Virus record (IMG/VR): IMGVR_UViG_3300046810_000180 | Span: 1 to 22,425 of that record | Direction: 5' to 3' (one strand) | DNA: 22,425 nucleotides | Origin: a virus | Shown here: positions 8,004 through 21,904 of the stretch, in pieces | Numbering within the stretch: the stretch's first letter is position 1 | Layout: each line of letters begins with the position of its first letter | The notes under the pieces: model-generated | What the model was told of the DNA's origin: nothing | Database searches by the model: none | What the model saw: the letters and a program-made list of their open reading frames with translations, nothing else | Translations under genes and position numbers: made by a program

Positions 8004-8375
8004 ATGGATGCGGTCACAAGACCGGCCCGCGTCAGCACGCCCGCCAACGGCGTGCTGACGTTCGAGGCCGATGGCCAGACCTGGCGGCTGTGCGCCTCGG
8101 TCAACGCCTTGTGCGAGTTGGAAGCCCTGGTGCCCGACGCCGAACAGGTCGCCCTGCTGATGTCGGGCGGGCAAGCCAACATCACCACCATCCGCACCGG
8201 GTTCTGCGCCTTCCTGCGGGATAACCACCCGGACCTGACCCAGACCGACGCGGGCCTGCTGCTCGATCACATCGGCCTGTCGGCCGCCGGCTCCAAGCTG
8301 GCCCAAGCCCTGATGATCGCCTTTCCGGCGGCCGACCCTGCCCGCCCTCCGAAGGCGGCGCGGAAGAGGGGCTAG
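8004..8375 (+). CDS. Tail assembly chaperone (GTA-type, upstream partner)
   Basis: 123 residues. The sequence GVLTFEADGQTWRLCASVNALCELEALV and the later TDAGLLLDHIGLSAAG match the pattern of the small chaperones encoded between tube and tape measure in gene transfer agents and related phages (Phage_TAC_11 type). These coat the tape measure protein during tail assembly, like gpG of lambda. It starts one base after the tube stop. A second open frame in -1 register overlaps its 3' end and lacks a normal start, so this gene probably also yields a longer frameshifted product. The C-terminus (PPKAARKRG) is short and basic. Confidence 0.85.
   Translation: MDAVTRPARVSTPANGVLTFEADGQTWRLCASVNALCELEALVPDAEQVALLMSGGQANITTIRTGFCAFLRDNHPDLTQTDAGLLLDHIGLSAAGSKLAQALMIAFPAADPARPPKAARKRG
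8367..8375 (+). other. Candidate -1 recoding site at the chaperone stop
   Basis: The chaperone ends AGG-GGC-TAG. A ribosome with Gly-tRNA on GGC and the TAG in its A site could slip back one base onto GGG and continue in the -1 frame. No textbook X-XXY-YYZ heptamer is present in the overlap between 8225 and 8375, so the exact slip site is a guess. The recoding itself is inferred from the missing start codon of the downstream frame. Confidence 0.35.
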
Positions 8376-11771: not shown

Positions 11772-12193
11772 CCGAGGCGAACGCCGTTCGTCGCGTGCGC
11801 GCGACCCAGGCCACCCTCGACCGCTTCCTGGGCAAGACCTACAAGCTGTCGACCGTCGATTGCGGGCGGATGCTGGGCCTGCACCTGCGCAAGATGGGCC
11901 GCAAGGTCGAGGTCCCGAAGATCGGCGCCTATTCCACCTATGCCGGCGCGCTGAAGTGGTTGAAGCAACGCGGTTGCGACAGCCTGGAAGCCTATCTCGA
12001 CAGCCTGGGCTTGCTGCGCATCGCGCCGGCCGAAGCCCTGGTGGGCGATGTCCTGACCCTGCAGAGCAACGATCTGCTGTCGGCGCCGGTGATCTATGTG
12101 GGCGATGGCCGCTACCTGGGTTTCCTCGAAGACAGTGACCGCGCCGAGCTGCTGAAGCCGACCGCCTTCGAACAGGCTTGGAGGGCGATCTAG
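11768..12193 (+). CDS. DUF6950-like tail tip protein (NlpC/P60-related position)
   Basis: 141 residues from ATG 11768; the frame is open earlier but only over the upstream gene. In this position, GTA-like and lambda-like tails usually encode an NlpC/P60 peptidase. A Cys at residue 32 in STVDCGRMLGLHL fits the catalytic-Cys helix, and APVIYVGDGRYLGF with a C-terminal FEQAWR fits the DUF6950-like 'v.y.Gdg..lg......aWr' pattern. The His expected just before the VIYVGDG strand is absent (the only His is residue 39), so peptidase activity is doubtful. Codons 3-9 lie within a copy of the recurring palindrome. The stop shares its G with the GTG of the tail hub gene. Confidence 0.72.
   Translation: MTEANAVRRVRATQATLDRFLGKTYKLSTVDCGRMLGLHLRKMGRKVEVPKIGAYSTYAGALKWLKQRGCDSLEAYLDSLGLLRIAPAEALVGDVLTLQSNDLLSAPVIYVGDGRYLGFLEDSDRAELLKPTAFEQAWRAI
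11773..11793 (+). repeat. Palindromic repeat, copy 3 (in DUF6950-like 5' end)
   Basis: Identical over 21 bases to copy 1, starting 5 bases after the ATG of the DUF6950-like gene, but read in a different codon register (EANAVR). Nucleotide identity in two registers argues for a DNA or RNA element rather than a shared peptide. Confidence 0.75.
12180..12185 (+). promoter_or_regulatory. Ribosome binding site for the GTG-started tail hub
   Basis: GGAGGG lies seven bases before GTG 12193. This favours GTG over the TTG at 12178, which has no comparable signal and would add five residues. Confidence 0.75.
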
Positions 12194-15048
12194 TGTCCAA
12201 AGCCGCCAAGCTGATCGCCGCCGTCGTCGTGACGGTGGCGGCTGTCGTCACGCTCGACCCGAACTTGATCCGCGCCGCTATCGCCATGGATACAGCGCTG
12301 ATCGTCGACGCCGCCACGCCCAAGCAGAAGGTCACGTCGGCCGGCCAGGAAACCAAGTGGAGCGCCAATCCGCGCGACGGCATCCCCTATCCGGTCGGGC
12401 GCTGCGCCACCGCCGGCAACCAGGTGTTCATGCGCTCCGCCCCGGCGAACAGCGGCAACAAGTACCGCAACTATGTGACCGTCTACGGCGCCGGCGGCCC
12501 CATGCAGGCGCTGGAGGGGTTTTACGCCAACGACGTGCTGACACCGTTCACGGCGGACGGCGGCGAGGGCGCGAGCGGCTATTATCTGAACCGGATGTGG
12601 CTGAAGACCCAGCTGGGGACGGCCAACTCGCCGTACCTGCACTGGACCGCCACGGGTTCGAAGGACACCCCGGCCGACCATGGCGGCATGCCTGCCGAGT
12701 GGTCGGCTGATCACCGCTTGTCGGGCTACGCCGCCAGCCTGTGGGGGCTGGAGTGGGACACCACCCGCTATGCCGGCGGCGTGCCGGCGCCCAAGATGGT
12801 CGGCAGCTGGGTCAAGGTCTATGACCCTCGCAAGGACAGCACCTATCCCGGCGGCGCCGGGCCGCACCGCTACGCGGAGCCGTCCGACAAGGCGGCCTAT
12901 CTGGCGGCGATGGCGACCTGGGAATGGTCGGCCAATCCCTACCTGCATGGCCTGATGTGGGCGCTGGGCCGCTGGACGGGGGACCCGGCCTATCCGGCCA
13001 TGCCGCTGGTCAAGACCCATGGCCTGGGCGCGCCGTTGTCGGTGATCGACGTGGCCAGCTTCGTCGAGGGCGCGAACGTCGCCCAGGCCAACGCCTGGAC
13101 CCTGGGCGGCGTGGTCAAGAGCACCGACGACAAGTGGGAGGTGCTGAAGCAATTCCTGGAAGCGGGCGGCGGCGAGCCGATCCTGCTGGGCCACAAGCTG
13201 GCCTGCATGGTCAACGCGCCCAAGGTGAGCCTGGCCACCCTGACCAAGGCCGACGCGATCGGCGACGTCAGCGTGGCGGGCGCCGTGGCGATCGAGGACC
13301 GCCTCAACACCATCTGGCCGTCCTACACCGAGGAAACCCAGAACTGGACCGTGGTCCCGTTCGACACTCCGGTGCAGGTCGCCGCGTACCTGGCCCCCGA
13401 CAAGGGCGTGCGGTCGACCGAGATGTCCCTGCCCCTGGTGCAAAGCCCGGTGCAGATGGCGCAGCTGGCCCGCTACCGGATCGAAGATAGCCGCGAGCTG
13501 ACGCCGATCGTGATCCCGGCCAAGCCGTGGACCATGTGGCTGCGGCCCGGCGACTGCATCACGGCCAATGAACCCGAGTGGGGGCTGAACGGTCAGAAGC
13601 TGCTGATCATGCAGCGCAAGCGCGACCCGGCGACGATGAAAGTCACCTTCATCTGCCGCACGGAAACGGACGGCAAACACGCCTTCGCGCTGGGCCAGAC
13701 CGCGACTCCGCCCGACACCCCGGCCCTGACCGGCATTGACGCGAGCATCGTGCCGCTGCCGGCTGGCGACGCCTTCGCGATCATCGACGGTCAGGTGGCG
13801 GGGCCTGGCGGTTCGCTACCGGCCATCGTGCTGCACGGCGAGGCCGACCTTTACGACGCTGTGACGATCGTCGTCGACTATCGCCGGGTGCTGCCCGAGC
13901 CCGTGGGCGAGTGGAAGTCCAAGTCATTCCCGGCCTCGGCGACGACTCTGGTGGTCGACGGCGTCGAGGCCGGCGCGCGGTATCAGGTCCGAATCCGCTA
14001 CATCACGGCCAAGGGTGTCGAGAACCCCGACGCCAACACCGACCTCGGCGAGATCGTGGTGGGCGGGGTCGATGCTGGGTCGGTGGCGGGTAAGCCGGCC
14101 CAAGAAGTGGTCGACGATCTGGCCGCCAACTTTCAGGAGTTGGCTCGCCAAATCCTGATCCTGCAGAATTTCGTCTCGTACCAAGAAGCGCTGAACTACG
14201 ACGGCGACGGCACGTCCACCAAGCTGGTCGCGCTGGACGCCATCGCCAAGGCGGCGACCGCTATTCAGCGCATGGCGCTGCTGGCGGCCGTCGCGCCGGG
14301 CGGCTTGAGCATGATCCTCAACGCCGCTACCGCCATCGCCGACAGCGACCACACGATCGGCACGCTGGCCAGCATCGTCACCAGCACCCTGGGCGATGGG
14401 ACCATCACGGTCAGTCAGATCATGGAGGCGATCGACGGGCAGGCCGGGCGGATCGCGTTCGCGGTCAACAGCGGAGATCAGGTGGTCGGCCTCGACCTCG
14501 GGATTCGCGGCAACACCGCCTATCTCGATCTGGTCTCGCCGAACGTCCGGTTCATCGATCCGGACGGGGTCGGCGGGCCGCTGGTGGTGCTGTCCTATTC
14601 GAACGCCTTGGGAAAGTGGACCGTCTCGACCGACGTGGCGATCGACGGCGACCTGACGATCACCGGCACGCTGACGACACCGAAATACGCGGACAACTCG
14701 GTCATCGTGCCCGTGGTCGTGACCGCCTCGTCCGCGGTCTATTGCGACGGAACCGACAAGGTCATGATTTCCGGATCGGTGACCCTGCCTTATCCGGGCA
14801 CGATCTACGCCACCAACTTCCTGGCCCCCGGCTTCCCGTCTGGCGACAAGACCTGGACCGCGAAGCTGTTCATTGACGGTGATCAGGTCTTCACCCTGGG
14901 CACGGCCGCCAACGCCGCCGACAGCATGGCCTTGGGCGGCTCGGCCTATCGCGCCGCCGGGACCTATCTGGTCGAGGTGACGCTGAATTCGCACAGCAGC
15001 GTCTTCGTCGGCAGCAGGACCCTCAACATCCAGGGGATCATGAAATGA
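12193..15048 (+). CDS. Large tail tip / central hub protein (host specificity type)
   Basis: 951 residues from GTG 12193, chosen for its Shine-Dalgarno and the TAGTG overlap. Position and size match the central tail-tip hub (gpJ-type) that contacts the host and opens the path for DNA. Residues 7-21 are an uninterrupted hydrophobic run (LIAAVVVTVAAVVTL) after a Lys-containing start, resembling a membrane segment. Residues ~40-500 form hub-like beta domains, ending with IVIPAKPWTMWLRPGD. A fibronectin-III-like section follows (~505-625: PPDTPALTGIDAS through ARYQVRIRYITAKG). Next come an Ala-rich helix (VVDDLAANFQELARQILIL) and a C-terminal beta domain (~830-951) with WTAKLFIDGDQV. There is no obvious peptidase or glycosidase motif. 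The stop overlaps the next start (ATGA). Confidence 0.85.
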   Translation: MSKAAKLIAAVVVTVAAVVTLDPNLIRAAIAMDTALIVDAATPKQKVTSAGQETKWSANPRDGIPYPVGRCATAGNQVFMRSAPANSGNKYRNYVTVYGAGGPMQALEGFYANDVLTPFTADGGEGASGYYLNRMWLKTQLGTANSPYLHWTATGSKDTPADHGGMPAEWSADHRLSGYAASLWGLEWDTTRYAGGVPAPKMVGSWVKVYDPRKDSTYPGGAGPHRYAEPSDKAAYLAAMATWEWSANPYLHGLMWALGRWTGDPAYPAMPLVKTHGLGAPLSVIDVASFVEGANVAQANAWTLGGVVKSTDDKWEVLKQFLEAGGGEPILLGHKLACMVNAPKVSLATLTKADAIGDVSVAGAVAIEDRLNTIWPSYTEETQNWTVVPFDTPVQVAAYLAPDKGVRSTEMSLPLVQSPVQMAQLARYRIEDSRELTPIVIPAKPWTMWLRPGDCITANEPEWGLNGQKLLIMQRKRDPATMKVTFICRTETDGKHAFALGQTATPPDTPALTGIDASIVPLPAGDAFAIIDGQVAGPGGSLPAIVLHGEADLYDAVTIVVDYRRVLPEPVGEWKSKSFPASATTLVVDGVEAGARYQVRIRYITAKGVENPDANTDLGEIVVGGVDAGSVAGKPAQEVVDDLAANFQELARQILILQNFVSYQEALNYDGDGTSTKLVALDAIAKAATAIQRMALLAAVAPGGLSMILNAATAIADSDHTIGTLASIVTSTLGDGTITVSQIMEAIDGQAGRIAFAVNSGDQVVGLDLGIRGNTAYLDLVSPNVRFIDPDGVGGPLVVLSYSNALGKWTVSTDVAIDGDLTITGTLTTPKYADNSVIVPVVVTASSAVYCDGTDKVMISGSVTLPYPGTIYATNFLAPGFPSGDKTWTAKLFIDGDQVFTLGTAANAADSMALGGSAYRAAGTYLVEVTLNSHSSVFVGSRTLNIQGIMK

Positions 15049-18713: not shown

Positions 18714-18734
18714 GAGGCGAACGCGGTTCGCCTC
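18714..18734 (+). repeat. Palindromic repeat, copy 4 (fibre / exported protein gap)
   Basis: The most complete copy: GAGGCGAAC at 18714-18722, spacer GCG, and its exact 9-base complement at 18726-18734. It lies in the 57-base gap after the fibre gene. Confidence 0.8.
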
Positions 18735-18762: not shown

Positions 18763-19257
18763 ATGAAGACCCCGCTCACGCGGGCGGCCTTTGGGCTGCT
18801 CGCGCTCTTGGCCTGCGCGTTCGCCGCGCCGGCCTTCGCCGCCGATTGCTCGACCGTGACCACGCCGAATACGTTGGGAACCACGGCGAACGCCCAGTTC
18901 GAGATTCTGCAGAAGCTGTGCGCGGGCATCACCACGCCGGGCTATGCCGCCAGCGGCGTGACTCCGGTCAGCAGCACGTTCACCGCCACGGGCCAGAGTG
19001 CGTCCTTCACGCCGTTGGCGGGGCGGCCGTTCAACGTTTCGGTGCAGGGGACCTTCGTCGCCACCTGCCAGCTGGAACGGCAGATCAACAGCGTCTGGCA
19101 GCTGCTAACGGTCAGCGCCTCGGGGTCGGTCGTACAGCTCTACAAATGGTCGACCCCGGCCAGCGAAATCGTCGTCGAACCGGAGTTCGGCATTCCCTAC
19201 CGCATCAACTGCACGGCCTACACCTCGGGCACGGTTAGCTATCGGGTGTCGCAATGA
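18763..19257 (+). CDS. Exported beta-rich phage protein (Sec signal peptide)
   Basis: 164 residues. The N-terminus is a clear Sec signal peptide: MKTPLTRAAF, a Leu/Ala core, and APAFA before Ala27 as the likely cleavage site. The mature protein has four Cys (29, 53, 102, 150), able to form two disulfides in the periplasm. Residues ~78-164 (SASFTPLAGRPFNVSVQG through GTVSYRVSQ) read as a beta domain resembling small domains of phage tail-associated proteins. GGAG at 18752 supports ATG 18763. It overlaps the SGNH esterase gene by 4 bases, so the two exported proteins are probably made together. Export is unusual for a tail-module gene: a role at the cell surface (receptor masking, superinfection exclusion) or as a partner of the esterase is possible but unproven. 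Confidence 0.8.
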   Translation: MKTPLTRAAFGLLALLACAFAAPAFAADCSTVTTPNTLGTTANAQFEILQKLCAGITTPGYAASGVTPVSSTFTATGQSASFTPLAGRPFNVSVQGTFVATCQLERQINSVWQLLTVSASGSVVQLYKWSTPASEIVVEPEFGIPYRINCTAYTSGTVSYRVSQ

Positions 19258-20645
19258 TCGCTCGCCTTATCCGTTGGGCCCTCGCCCCCATCCTGGCCCT
19301 GGCCCTGGCTTCGCCGGGGCTCGCCCAGGTCGATCCCGTCGCTCGCGGCCTGGGGGCCGCCAGCCTGTCCGGGGTCAACCGCACCACGCTGAACGAAAAG
19401 CTGCGGGTGGCGATGAACCGCGCTGCGGCCTTCAACCCTGAAGACGCCGACGTCGCGACGGGTGTCACGATGTCGGTGGCGGGCACGCTCGACGCCAGCC
19501 TGACCAAGTCCTACGTGGCTGGAACTGACTATCAGCAGTTCGGCTGGACCGGCGGCAAGCCGACGCTGGACAACAGCGTGCGCATCCAGATGCCGGTGGC
19601 GTCGCTGGCCCCGGCCAACGGCAACCTGTCGTCCACCCTGCCGGCGACGCCCAGTTACAACGCCAATGGCTGGGAGATGAAGTTCTGGTCGGACAGCCCG
19701 CTGATCCAGATCCGGATGGGCGGCAACACGGCGCGCGGCTTTCGCGTAGTGGTCGATGGCCGGTATGTCACCAAGTCGATCACCAACTACGCGGCCAACA
19801 GCAGCGCCAACTATATCACGCTGGACTTCGCGGGCGTCTACAAGCCGCGCCGCATCGAGCTGCATGCCGGCGGCGCTGACGAGTTTGTCGCCGCCTATGT
19901 GATGCCGCTGGCCTCGATCTGGCCCCCGGCCACGCCCGGCGTTACGGCGGTCACGTTCGGCGACTCCTATGGCGAGGGGCAGGGTATCTCGCCGGCCGGG
20001 GCGACCCAGGCGTGGCCGAAGCTGACCGGCCGCATGATGGGCTGGGACGAGGTCCGCCAGTTCAACGTCGGCTCGACCGGCTACTTGTCCGACAACGGCG
20101 GCCTGCGCTCGACGCTGCGCACTCAATTGGCGAGCATCATGACGCTCAATTCCGACCTGGTCCCGGCCGACGTCGGTGTCGTGGTCATCGGCAATGGCTA
20201 TAACGATCTGTCGTTCGGCGGCTCGGCGGTGCAGGCCGAAGTGGCGATCGTCCTGCCGATGATCCGAACGATGTTCCCCAACGCCCGCATTGTAGTGCTC
20301 GGGTCCTGGGCCGGCGCGCGCGGGCCCGGGTCTTCGACGGTGTCGATCGAGCAAGGCATTCAGGCCGCCTTCAACGCCTGGGGCGATCCCAACAGCGACT
20401 TTATCCCCGTGTCGCCGGTGGCCAGCAGTTCGGCCTCGTGGTTCTGGGGCACGGGCTATGTCGGGGCGACGAACGCATCCGGCAACAGCGACCGACTGGT
20501 CGGCACGGACGGCACGCACCCGACCGTGGCCGGCCAGGAAGTGATCGCCCGGCGCATCGCCTCGGCGTTGCGGGCGTCCTGGGCGCGGCTTGGGCCGCTG
20601 GCGGCGAATGATAATGACCGTTCGGTGACGGTGTTGGCGGCTTAA
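19254..20645 (+). CDS. Exported SGNH/GDSL-family esterase
   Basis: 463 residues. The signal peptide is at 1-25 (IARLIRW, then PILALALAS, ending GLAQ). Residues ~60-225 are beta-rich, probably a jelly-roll accessory domain (YITLDFAGVYKPRRIELHAGG). The SGNH hydrolase domain follows: block I TFGDSYGEG with nucleophile Ser238; a block II Gly in NVGSTGY (273/276); block III GYND with Asn317; block V DGTHP with Asp419 and His422. All catalytic residues are present, so an active esterase or deacetylase is expected. Likely substrates are O-acetyl groups on surface polysaccharide, but none can be proven. The start overlaps the upstream exported protein (ATGA). It could remodel the lysogen or infected-cell surface, or be a virion depolymerase; the signal peptide argues for export from the host. 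Confidence 0.88.
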   Translation: MIARLIRWALAPILALALASPGLAQVDPVARGLGAASLSGVNRTTLNEKLRVAMNRAAAFNPEDADVATGVTMSVAGTLDASLTKSYVAGTDYQQFGWTGGKPTLDNSVRIQMPVASLAPANGNLSSTLPATPSYNANGWEMKFWSDSPLIQIRMGGNTARGFRVVVDGRYVTKSITNYAANSSANYITLDFAGVYKPRRIELHAGGADEFVAAYVMPLASIWPPATPGVTAVTFGDSYGEGQGISPAGATQAWPKLTGRMMGWDEVRQFNVGSTGYLSDNGGLRSTLRTQLASIMTLNSDLVPADVGVVVIGNGYNDLSFGGSAVQAEVAIVLPMIRTMFPNARIVVLGSWAGARGPGSSTVSIEQGIQAAFNAWGDPNSDFIPVSPVASSSASWFWGTGYVGATNASGNSDRLVGTDGTHPTVAGQEVIARRIASALRASWARLGPLAANDNDRSVTVLAA

Positions 20646-20651
20646 ACCGTA

Positions 20652-20677
20652 CCGGGCGCGGCCTTTGCCGCGCCCGG
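20652..20677 (+). terminator. Strong stem-loop after the esterase gene
   Basis: An 11-bp perfect stem (CCGGGCGCGGC, loop CTTT, exact complement) begins 6 bases after the esterase stop. It is the strongest hairpin seen in the window and separates the fibre/exported module from the lysis module. No T-run follows, so termination may be partial. It also matches the GC-rich stem-loops seen after the capsid gene. Confidence 0.5.
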
Positions 20678-20702: not shown

Positions 20703-20951
20703 ATGGGGGAGGCTATCGTGGTCGGCCTCGTATCGGCCGGCAGCGCCGTGCTGGGCGTCGGGCTGAAGTCGCTGTTCGACTGGCTCAACGAACGCACGCG
20801 GGCCAAGGCCCCCGCCAGCATCGCCGCGTCACAGGCCGCGTTCGCGGCGGCCCTCAACACCCAGGCCGAGGGCTTTATCCGCATCCTTCAGGCTGATCGC
20901 ACCCACCTTGAAGAGAAGGTGGCGGCGCTCGAGGCCAAGGTCGATGAGTAG
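20703..20951 (+). CDS. Membrane-anchored coiled-coil protein, first part (ends at amber)
   Basis: 82 residues before TAG at 20949-20951. ATG 20703 has a good Shine-Dalgarno (AGGGGAGG, 20689-20696). An N-terminal hydrophobic helix (AIVVGLVSAGSAVLGVGL) may insert in the membrane; then comes an Ala-rich helix ending in heptad-like EEKVAALEAKVDE. The same frame stays open past the stop with matching coiled-coil character until TGA 21209, so the full product would be about 168 residues. I do not recognise the family. Being next to the holin suggests a lysis or late membrane role. It may be a nonsense-mutated gene, a read-through gene, or two genes sharing a frame. Confidence 0.6.
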   Translation: MGEAIVVGLVSAGSAVLGVGLKSLFDWLNERTRAKAPASIAASQAAFAAALNTQAEGFIRILQADRTHLEEKVAALEAKVDE

Positions 20952-21541: not shown

Positions 21542-21904
21542 ATGACCTGGCAATGGGACCAGAGCGCGGGCGAGATTTCGCGCGCGGGCAAGGTCGTGTC
21601 CCGAGGCTATTCCGGCTTCGGGCGCGGCAAGAACAATCCGTCGATGCAGGCGGCGGTCGGGGTCGGCCCGATCCCGGCCGGCCGCTGGACGATCGCCGAG
21701 CGCTATGACAGCGCCAATGTCGGACCCTACGCCCTGAAGCTGGAGCCGGTCGACCATGCCGCCCTCGGGCGCTCGGCCTTCCGCATCCACGGCGATTCCG
21801 TCGCCAATCCCGGCAGCGCCTCGCATGGCTGCATCATCCTGCCGCGCGCGGTGCGGGAACTGATCTGGAAGAGCGGCGACCGCGACCTGGTGGTGATCGC
21901 ATGA
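21542..21904 (+). CDS. L,D-transpeptidase-like (DUF2778-type) wall enzyme, candidate endolysin
   Basis: 120 residues, a single compact domain. The signature is FRIHGDS with His83, then PGSASHGCIILP with Ser94, His95 and Cys97, the 'HG......SHGCI.l' motif of YkuD/DUF2778 L,D-transpeptidase-like folds; Cys97 would be the nucleophile. Earlier segments (YSGFGRGKNNPSMQ, VGPIPAGRWTIAE) fit the DUF2778 N-terminal half. There is no signal peptide, so access to peptidoglycan would be through the holin. It sits exactly where an endolysin is expected, between holin and spanins, and no other wall enzyme is visible. It could cut or exchange peptide crosslinks. GGAGAA before ATG 21542 supports the start; the stop overlaps the i-spanin start (ATGA). 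Confidence 0.85.
   Translation: MTWQWDQSAGEISRAGKVVSRGYSGFGRGKNNPSMQAAVGVGPIPAGRWTIAERYDSANVGPYALKLEPVDHAALGRSAFRIHGDSVANPGSASHGCIILPRAVRELIWKSGDRDLVVIA

Follow-up and report, generated by a model that had tools for sequence, protein, structure and literature searches.

Two genes with signal peptides between the tail fibre and lysis genes

The window, by which we mean the whole stretch of DNA analysed here, is a 22,425-base virus record that carries the genes for TerL, portal, prohead protease, major capsid, tape measure, tail tip, fibre and lysis proteins in the usual order. Because the named phages nearest to its major capsid protein (47–51% identity) infect rhizobia and Roseibium, the host is likely to be an alphaproteobacterium. 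Between the tail fibre and the lysis genes lie two genes on the plus strand: gene 1 (18763–19257), encoding a 164-aa adaptor-like protein (P0001), and gene 2 (19254–20645), encoding a 463-aa predicted SGNH esterase (P0002), which overlap by 4 nt (ATGA). An earlier note on this DNA had described two overlapping exported genes here, each with a Sec signal peptide; the open reading frames bear out the first part of that description and the N-terminal sequences, as follows, the second.

Signal peptides were scored by a home-made rule of thumb for the n-, h- and c-regions. By this rule, P0001 starts with a Sec signal peptide of residues 1–26 (18763–18840, plus strand; MKTPLTRAAFGLLALLACAFAAPAFA, ending in APAFA before AD; score 44.5) and P0002 with one of residues 1–24 (19254–19325, plus strand; MIARLIRWALAPILALALASPGLA, ending in PGLA before QVD; score 33.1), each having the positively charged n-region, short h-region and AxA-type site of a Sec/SPase I substrate, with the site conserved in relatives. 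The rule was positive for 18 of 19 proteins from the slots of exported pairs and for none of 12 non-exported homologues, against a background of 4 of 61 annotated coding sequences of other phages. It also picked out one of the 18 other window genes scored, that of the tail-tip protein. The tail-tip (J-like) proteins of the window (12193–15048) and of contigs L014, L023 and L026 have a hydrophobic N-terminal stretch that mimics a signal peptide (for example, MSKAAKLIAAVVVTVAAVVTL).

Such N termini might instead stay uncleaved, as helices that contact a membrane or the particle, and the two proteins would then be ordinary virion spikes. The hydrophobic N terminus of this phage's own tail-tip protein is in keeping with that, as are the megatron N termini of RcGTA, which are thought to enter the outer membrane (PMC7296036). 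The charged n-regions, short h-regions and conserved AxA-type sites are, however, unlike the N termini of virion homologues that have no signal peptide, and we consider uncleaved helices very improbable; P0001 and P0002 are, in our reading, very probably exported.

The lysis region that follows the pair has two peculiarities of its own. Its first gene (20703–20951) has an in-frame TAG after 82 aa with the rest of the frame open, and in the counterpart of the sister phage L009 the same frame runs to 168 aa; the TAG is either a nonsense mutation or an assembly error. At the place expected for an endolysin (21542–21904), flanked by holin-like and Rz-like genes, the window encodes a 120-aa protein containing a Tlde1/YkuD (L,D-transpeptidase-like) domain, and the related contig L008 encodes a different protein there.

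Gene 2 encodes a predicted SGNH esterase with an intact active site

The SGNH hydrolase domain of P0002 (19944–20591, plus strand) was identified by PF13472 (42–44 bits, above the curated cut-off of 32.9), by alignments and in a structure model. D237–S238 (Ser238 codon, 19965–19967), G273, N317, D419 and H422 are all conserved among homologues, in agreement with the earlier description of an intact site built on Ser238, Asn317, Asp419 and His422. The additional beta-rich domain described with it is also real: in the model, strands at residues 139–216 precede the SGNH fold and, together with the fold search, delimit a beta-sandwich of about residues 139–222 (19668–19919, plus strand). Because the mean pLDDT of the model is 54, we trusted it for topology only.

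A Foldseek search with this model was led by the acyltransferase SsfX3 and the CE2-type acetylesterases Est2A, CtCE2 and CjCE2; the E values against CE2 enzymes were about 1e-10 to 1e-11, but with low TM-scores and from a model of pLDDT 54. A phmmer search of the PDB with the P0002 sequence found no known CE2 member. Since SsfX3 and CE2-type enzymes lead the fold matches, polysaccharide O-deacetylation is our best guess for the reaction, and P0002 may plausibly be a polysaccharide deacetylase of CE2-like fold, with a jelly-roll joined to the SGNH domain. The nearest sequences are phage proteins, from Bradyrhizobium phage BDU-MI-1 (36% identity over 83%) and Caulobacter phage DMCA (32%), followed by those of Bacillus phage Mater, which RefSeq lists as a tail protein, of Streptomyces phage LibertyBell and of Gordonia phages, where the annotation is esterase; by the n/h/c rule, a signal peptide was found in none of them. 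Viral scans with P0002 alone, with its first 63 residues or with P0002 plus the BDU-MI-1 protein returned no confirmed relative, and a plasmid search returned only SGNH relatives, in Cupriavidus and Streptomyces.

The position of the pair directly before the lysis genes would also suit an exported peptidoglycan O-acetylesterase with a helper, clearing the way for the endolysin, and such enzymes do occur among the P0002 fold matches, although at low rank (4k3u, 8gld). Several observations weigh against this: the leading folds include the polysaccharide-directed CE2 enzymes, the nearest sequences are phage proteins of tail or receptor type, and in L009 an unrelated hydrolase of family phrog_16653 replaces the gene while the lysis genes are still 95% identical. 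We rank it as the least probable of the alternatives considered here, and retain a polysaccharide as the candidate substrate.

Gene 1 encodes an adaptor-like protein

Behind its signal peptide, P0001 consists of two domains. The N-terminal domain (18841–18960, plus strand), defined by comparison of relatives and by the structure model, belongs to a type that we call N1 (DCxTxTxPNTxGTTANA...C, with C29/C53 and a helix at 40–56). The C-terminal domain (residues 67–164; 18961–19254, plus strand), defined by homologues, model and fold matches, is a predicted jelly-roll-like sandwich of a type that we call A; most of its blocks have a pLDDT of about 65–82, in a model whose overall confidence is low to moderate (mean pLDDT 59). 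The fold matches are weak and of one kind, mostly tailed-phage proteins of 100–125 residues, C1q and a pentameric phage capsid protein (4dmi/4e27). In Microcystis phage Mae-Yong1326-1 the C-terminal domain is a stand-alone 107-aa protein without a signal peptide. Gene 1 resembles a jelly-roll adaptor such as two-part spikes have. Homologues with signal peptides are encoded in L008, L009, L011 and L013, and comparison with L008 indicated purifying selection (dN/dS 0.19 overall; 0.31 for the signal peptide, 0.19 for the N-terminal and 0.15 for the C-terminal domain); with the gene-1 N terminus as the query against genome contigs, no relative was confirmed.

The four cysteines that the earlier note took to suit a periplasmic or surface setting do follow the signal peptide (residues 29, 53, 102 and 150), although only the C29/C53 pair recurs in all relatives of this N-terminal type. 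Other gene-1 relatives have between none and four cysteines, and pairing is not universal among gene-1 proteins (three cysteines in L013); we therefore dropped the cysteines as general evidence of export.

Related phages keep the signal peptides and exchange the domains

With gene 1, the tail tip and SGNH proteins as queries, IMG/VR yielded at least six other phage contigs with a signal-peptide-bearing pair, so that a proposed search for the same pair elsewhere was successful. Signal peptides are present on both genes in the window, L008, L009, L011, L013, L030, L036 and L037, where those of L036 and L037 were judged by eye and L011 gene 2 fails the rule on account of a long N-region. The ATGA overlap recurs in six of the eight pairs. 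Looser parallels occur in L031, L026 and L023; similar exported pairs of a small and an SGNH protein are sited in the head module of L031 and after the lysis genes of L026. Small proteins with signal peptides are also encoded at L014:16772–17659, L031:4960–5478 and L023:17213–17674, and the L031 protein matches the C-terminal domain of the tail-fibre family phrog_11393.

Within this set the domains are exchanged. L008 has a full-length gene 1 that is 85% identical and a gene 2 with a related N terminus (QAIDPVARGVGAAAL) and a different SGNH enzyme. The sisters L009 and L016 have the same fibre and lysis genes as the window and a similar gene-1 N-terminal domain, joined to a different C-terminal domain; in place of the SGNH esterase their gene 2 encodes the phrog_16653 'hydrolase', which in our own reading of the L009 sequence may be beta-helix-like. 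Both genes of L013 are related to those of the window, gene 1 at 50% across the aligned region and gene 2 at 29%. In L030, L036 and L037, gene 2 is 82–87% identical to that of L013 and the gene-1 C-terminal domain is also as in L013, but the N-terminal domain, which is coiled-coil-like, and the signal peptide before it are both different. L011 carries gene 1 and two SGNH-type genes, one of them with its long N-region ahead of the hydrophobic stretch. Typing by pairwise scores against shuffles resolved gene 1 into two N-terminal and two C-terminal types that occur in mixed combinations. What is constant across the loci is the signal peptides and the pairing, while the enzymes are several and unrelated. 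Because sisters exchange the enzyme yet keep the signal peptides, the pair probably edits sugars of the host surface rather than merely joining the particle. Export and modularity are both well supported by these comparisons of sequence.

The exchange also offers a clue to how the two proteins might interact. The mature N terminus of P0002 carries the motif QVDPVARGLGAASLSGVN (19326–19379, plus strand), partly common to sisters with a different enzyme, which we propose as a docking peptide. Gene-1 C-terminal type A always occurs with an enzyme whose mature N terminus is Q-x(0-1)-D or nearly so, and type B with another, type B being represented by a single case (L009). Because jelly-roll type and N-terminal motif co-segregate, the comparison suggests that the gene-1 jelly-roll may bind the N-terminal peptide of the enzyme, by analogy with the head spike of RcGTA, in which residues IALGLGLGL of the fibre Rcc01080 sit on a pentamer of the base protein Rcc01079 (PMC7296036).

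The exchanged stretch begins within gene 1

DNA comparison with L009 and L016 located the replaced stretch at 18924–20647, with flanks that are 93–95% identical: L016 matches the window at 93% as far as 18923, which falls in codon 54 of gene 1, shows no similarity across the stretch and matches again at 95% from 20648. An 11-bp hairpin after gene 2 (20652–20677) marks the right edge of the swap, because identity to L016 resumes at 20648; L009 retains this hairpin with a matching change in both arms (CCGGG/CCCGG to CCAGG/CCTGG). On the left, a palindrome (GAGGCGAAC-GCG-GTTCGCCTC; 18714–18734) lies between genes of the late gene row, outside the replaced stretch, with a decayed copy at the same place in L008. 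It is one of four near-copies of GAGGCGAACNNNGTTCGCCTC in the window, at 1993, 6032, 11774 and 18714 (chance expectation, 0.04).

The earlier note had seen the pair as a discrete cassette bracketed by this palindrome and the strongest hairpin. Both elements exist, although a perfect 12-bp stem at 8030 makes 'strongest' inexact, and the right edge of the swap does coincide with the hairpin at 20652. The left edge contradicts a cassette that runs from hairpin to hairpin, since similarity to L009 and L016 stops at 18923, inside gene 1.

Relatives without signal peptides belong to virion modules

Relatives that share these domains and have no signal peptide sit in the virion modules of other phages: the Bacillus phage Mater protein is annotated as a tail protein, that of Caulobacter phage DMCA is encoded downstream of the tape measure, that of Streptomyces phage LibertyBell between the major tail protein and the tape measure, and that of L029 in a head module. 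The 'head decoration' family phrog_9703 matches parts of both the window fibre and P0002. In the sister L014, the same slot holds a small protein related to DMCA_022 and a fibre that starts with MPGLSLGLGLGL; because both are free of signal peptides, the slot of the exported pair appears to be filled in this relative by a cytoplasmic spike-like pair. A short peptide with a similar motif, DMCA_023, adjoins the SGNH gene of DMCA. The Leu/Gly plug motif is present in L014 and DMCA and absent from P0002 and the whole window. In DMCA (L003:7329–7472), a 47-aa protein (MALSLGLGMGLNR...) encoded between a base-like gene and an SGNH gene has, on its own, a motif resembling the head-fibre plug of RcGTA.

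This kinship is the strength of the main rival explanation, in which adaptor and enzyme are virion parts assembled outside the cytoplasm: after their export, lysis would set them free to attach as spikes to completed particles. All domains have relatives among virion proteins, the corresponding slot of L014 is taken by a cytoplasmic spike-like pair, the head module of L031 encodes an esterase and a tail-fibre C-terminal domain that are both exported, and enzyme swapping is typical of receptor-binding proteins. Against it, the gene-1 N-terminal domain that would have to hold the particle is itself exchanged behind the same upstream fibre (L013 versus L036), and spike assembly after lysis is not known to us from any tailed phage. 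We regard decoration of particles after lysis as unlikely.

The second rival is lysogenic conversion, by which the pair would be exported from the prophage and alter the host surface to the benefit of lysogen and prophage, like lom and bor of phage lambda. Lambda lom, which follows J, is a precedent for exported genes beside tail genes, and several of the pair-bearing phages have integrases (L009, L011 and L013). The pair nevertheless lies inside the late gene row, and around it we found neither a sigma-70-like promoter nor an intrinsic terminator above chance, by a search that could miss an alphaproteobacterial promoter; lysogenic conversion is, in our judgement, improbable.

Proposed role of the pair

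The reading that we favour, with a probability of roughly 0.55, is that the pair is a two-gene unit derived from a phage spike or receptor-binding module, re-routed through Sec and acting late on a glycan of the envelope or surface. At the level of sequence it draws on two predicted signal peptides, an intact catalytic site, coupled genes, domain swapping and virion-type homologues. Gene 1 would be an exported adaptor in which the N-terminal anchor domain can be swapped and the C-terminal domain is a jelly-roll. Gene 2 would be a carbohydrate-active enzyme that is likewise exported, in this phage a CE2-like SGNH polysaccharide O-acetylesterase, whose mature N-terminal peptide would dock on that jelly-roll much as the RcGTA head-fibre N terminus does on its base protein. 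The complex would be produced late, when the tail and lysis genes are expressed, accumulate in the periplasm or envelope and act on an acetylated glycan there or at the surface, before and at lysis. As no route past the outer membrane is known, it might reach only periplasmic glycan before lysis. Its purpose may be to avoid readsorption, exclude superinfection or ease release: progeny would be freed without sticking to debris, and superinfection would be limited. The earlier note had imagined a surface-modifying system, for example one that deacetylates the receptor polysaccharide so as to block superinfection or free progeny; export, linkage of the two genes and a plausible deacetylase support that idea in part, and the kinship with virion proteins and the modularity of the pair go beyond it.

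A broader proposal is tentative, and we lean against it: some temperate phages, probably alphaproteobacterial, may carry diversifying secreted spike complexes of adaptor and enzyme that are assembled outside the cytoplasm and either edit the host surface or decorate progeny after lysis. If it is true, host specificity would depend in part on proteins left out of particle assembly in the cytoplasm. Phage receptor-binding enzymes are usually regarded as particle parts of cytoplasmic origin, and a recurring, domain-swapping Sec pair would mean either a secreted arm of the arms race between phage and receptor, editing the surface before lysis, or extracellular assembly of particle parts. A signal peptide ahead of spike or fibre domains is a pattern that can be scanned for in any phage genome.

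Comparison with known systems

The SGNH receptor-binding proteins of Klebsiella prophages are active esterases, with G7C gp63.1 as an earlier precedent (PMC13123978). The window resembles these systems in having an SGNH hydrolase beside the tail-fibre genes, in the likely O-deacetylation of a surface polysaccharide and in the swapping of enzymes between related phages. Those proteins are particle-borne fibres, whereas the window enzyme and its partner bear Sec signal peptides; the pair thus has the virion-module homology of particle-borne SGNH fibres and spikes, and not their synthesis without a signal peptide. The term 'signal peptide' is absent from the text on the Klebsiella prophage fibres (PMC13123978). 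In the literature searched, which lay outside preprints and most subscription journals, we found no description of exported tail-fibre or esterase genes in phages, nor of a signal-peptide-bearing version of such a pair, and this is weak evidence that none has been described.

With the RcGTA head spike the pair may share the combination of a small jelly-roll protein and a larger glycan-directed protein, and in the related phage L014 the very same slot is filled by a pair that has the Leu/Gly plug motif; the window pair differs in being exported, in having no LGLGLGL motif and in the additional N-terminal domain of gene 1. The CE2 carbohydrate esterases CtCE2, CjCE2 and Est2A have a jelly-roll followed by an SGNH catalytic domain, the order that the P0002 model suggests at low confidence, but P0002 has no detectable sequence similarity to them in the PDB search, is phage-encoded and comes with a partner protein. 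For phrog_9703 and the BDU-MI-1 and DMCA relatives, the beta domain and SGNH region align with much of P0002; these proteins have no signal peptide, and the neighbours of the DMCA gene are a base-like gene and a peptide with the plug motif. The literature already describes receptor-binding enzymes of the SGNH type, CE2 esterases and spikes in two parts; what may be new here is the signal-peptide-bearing version of such a pair.
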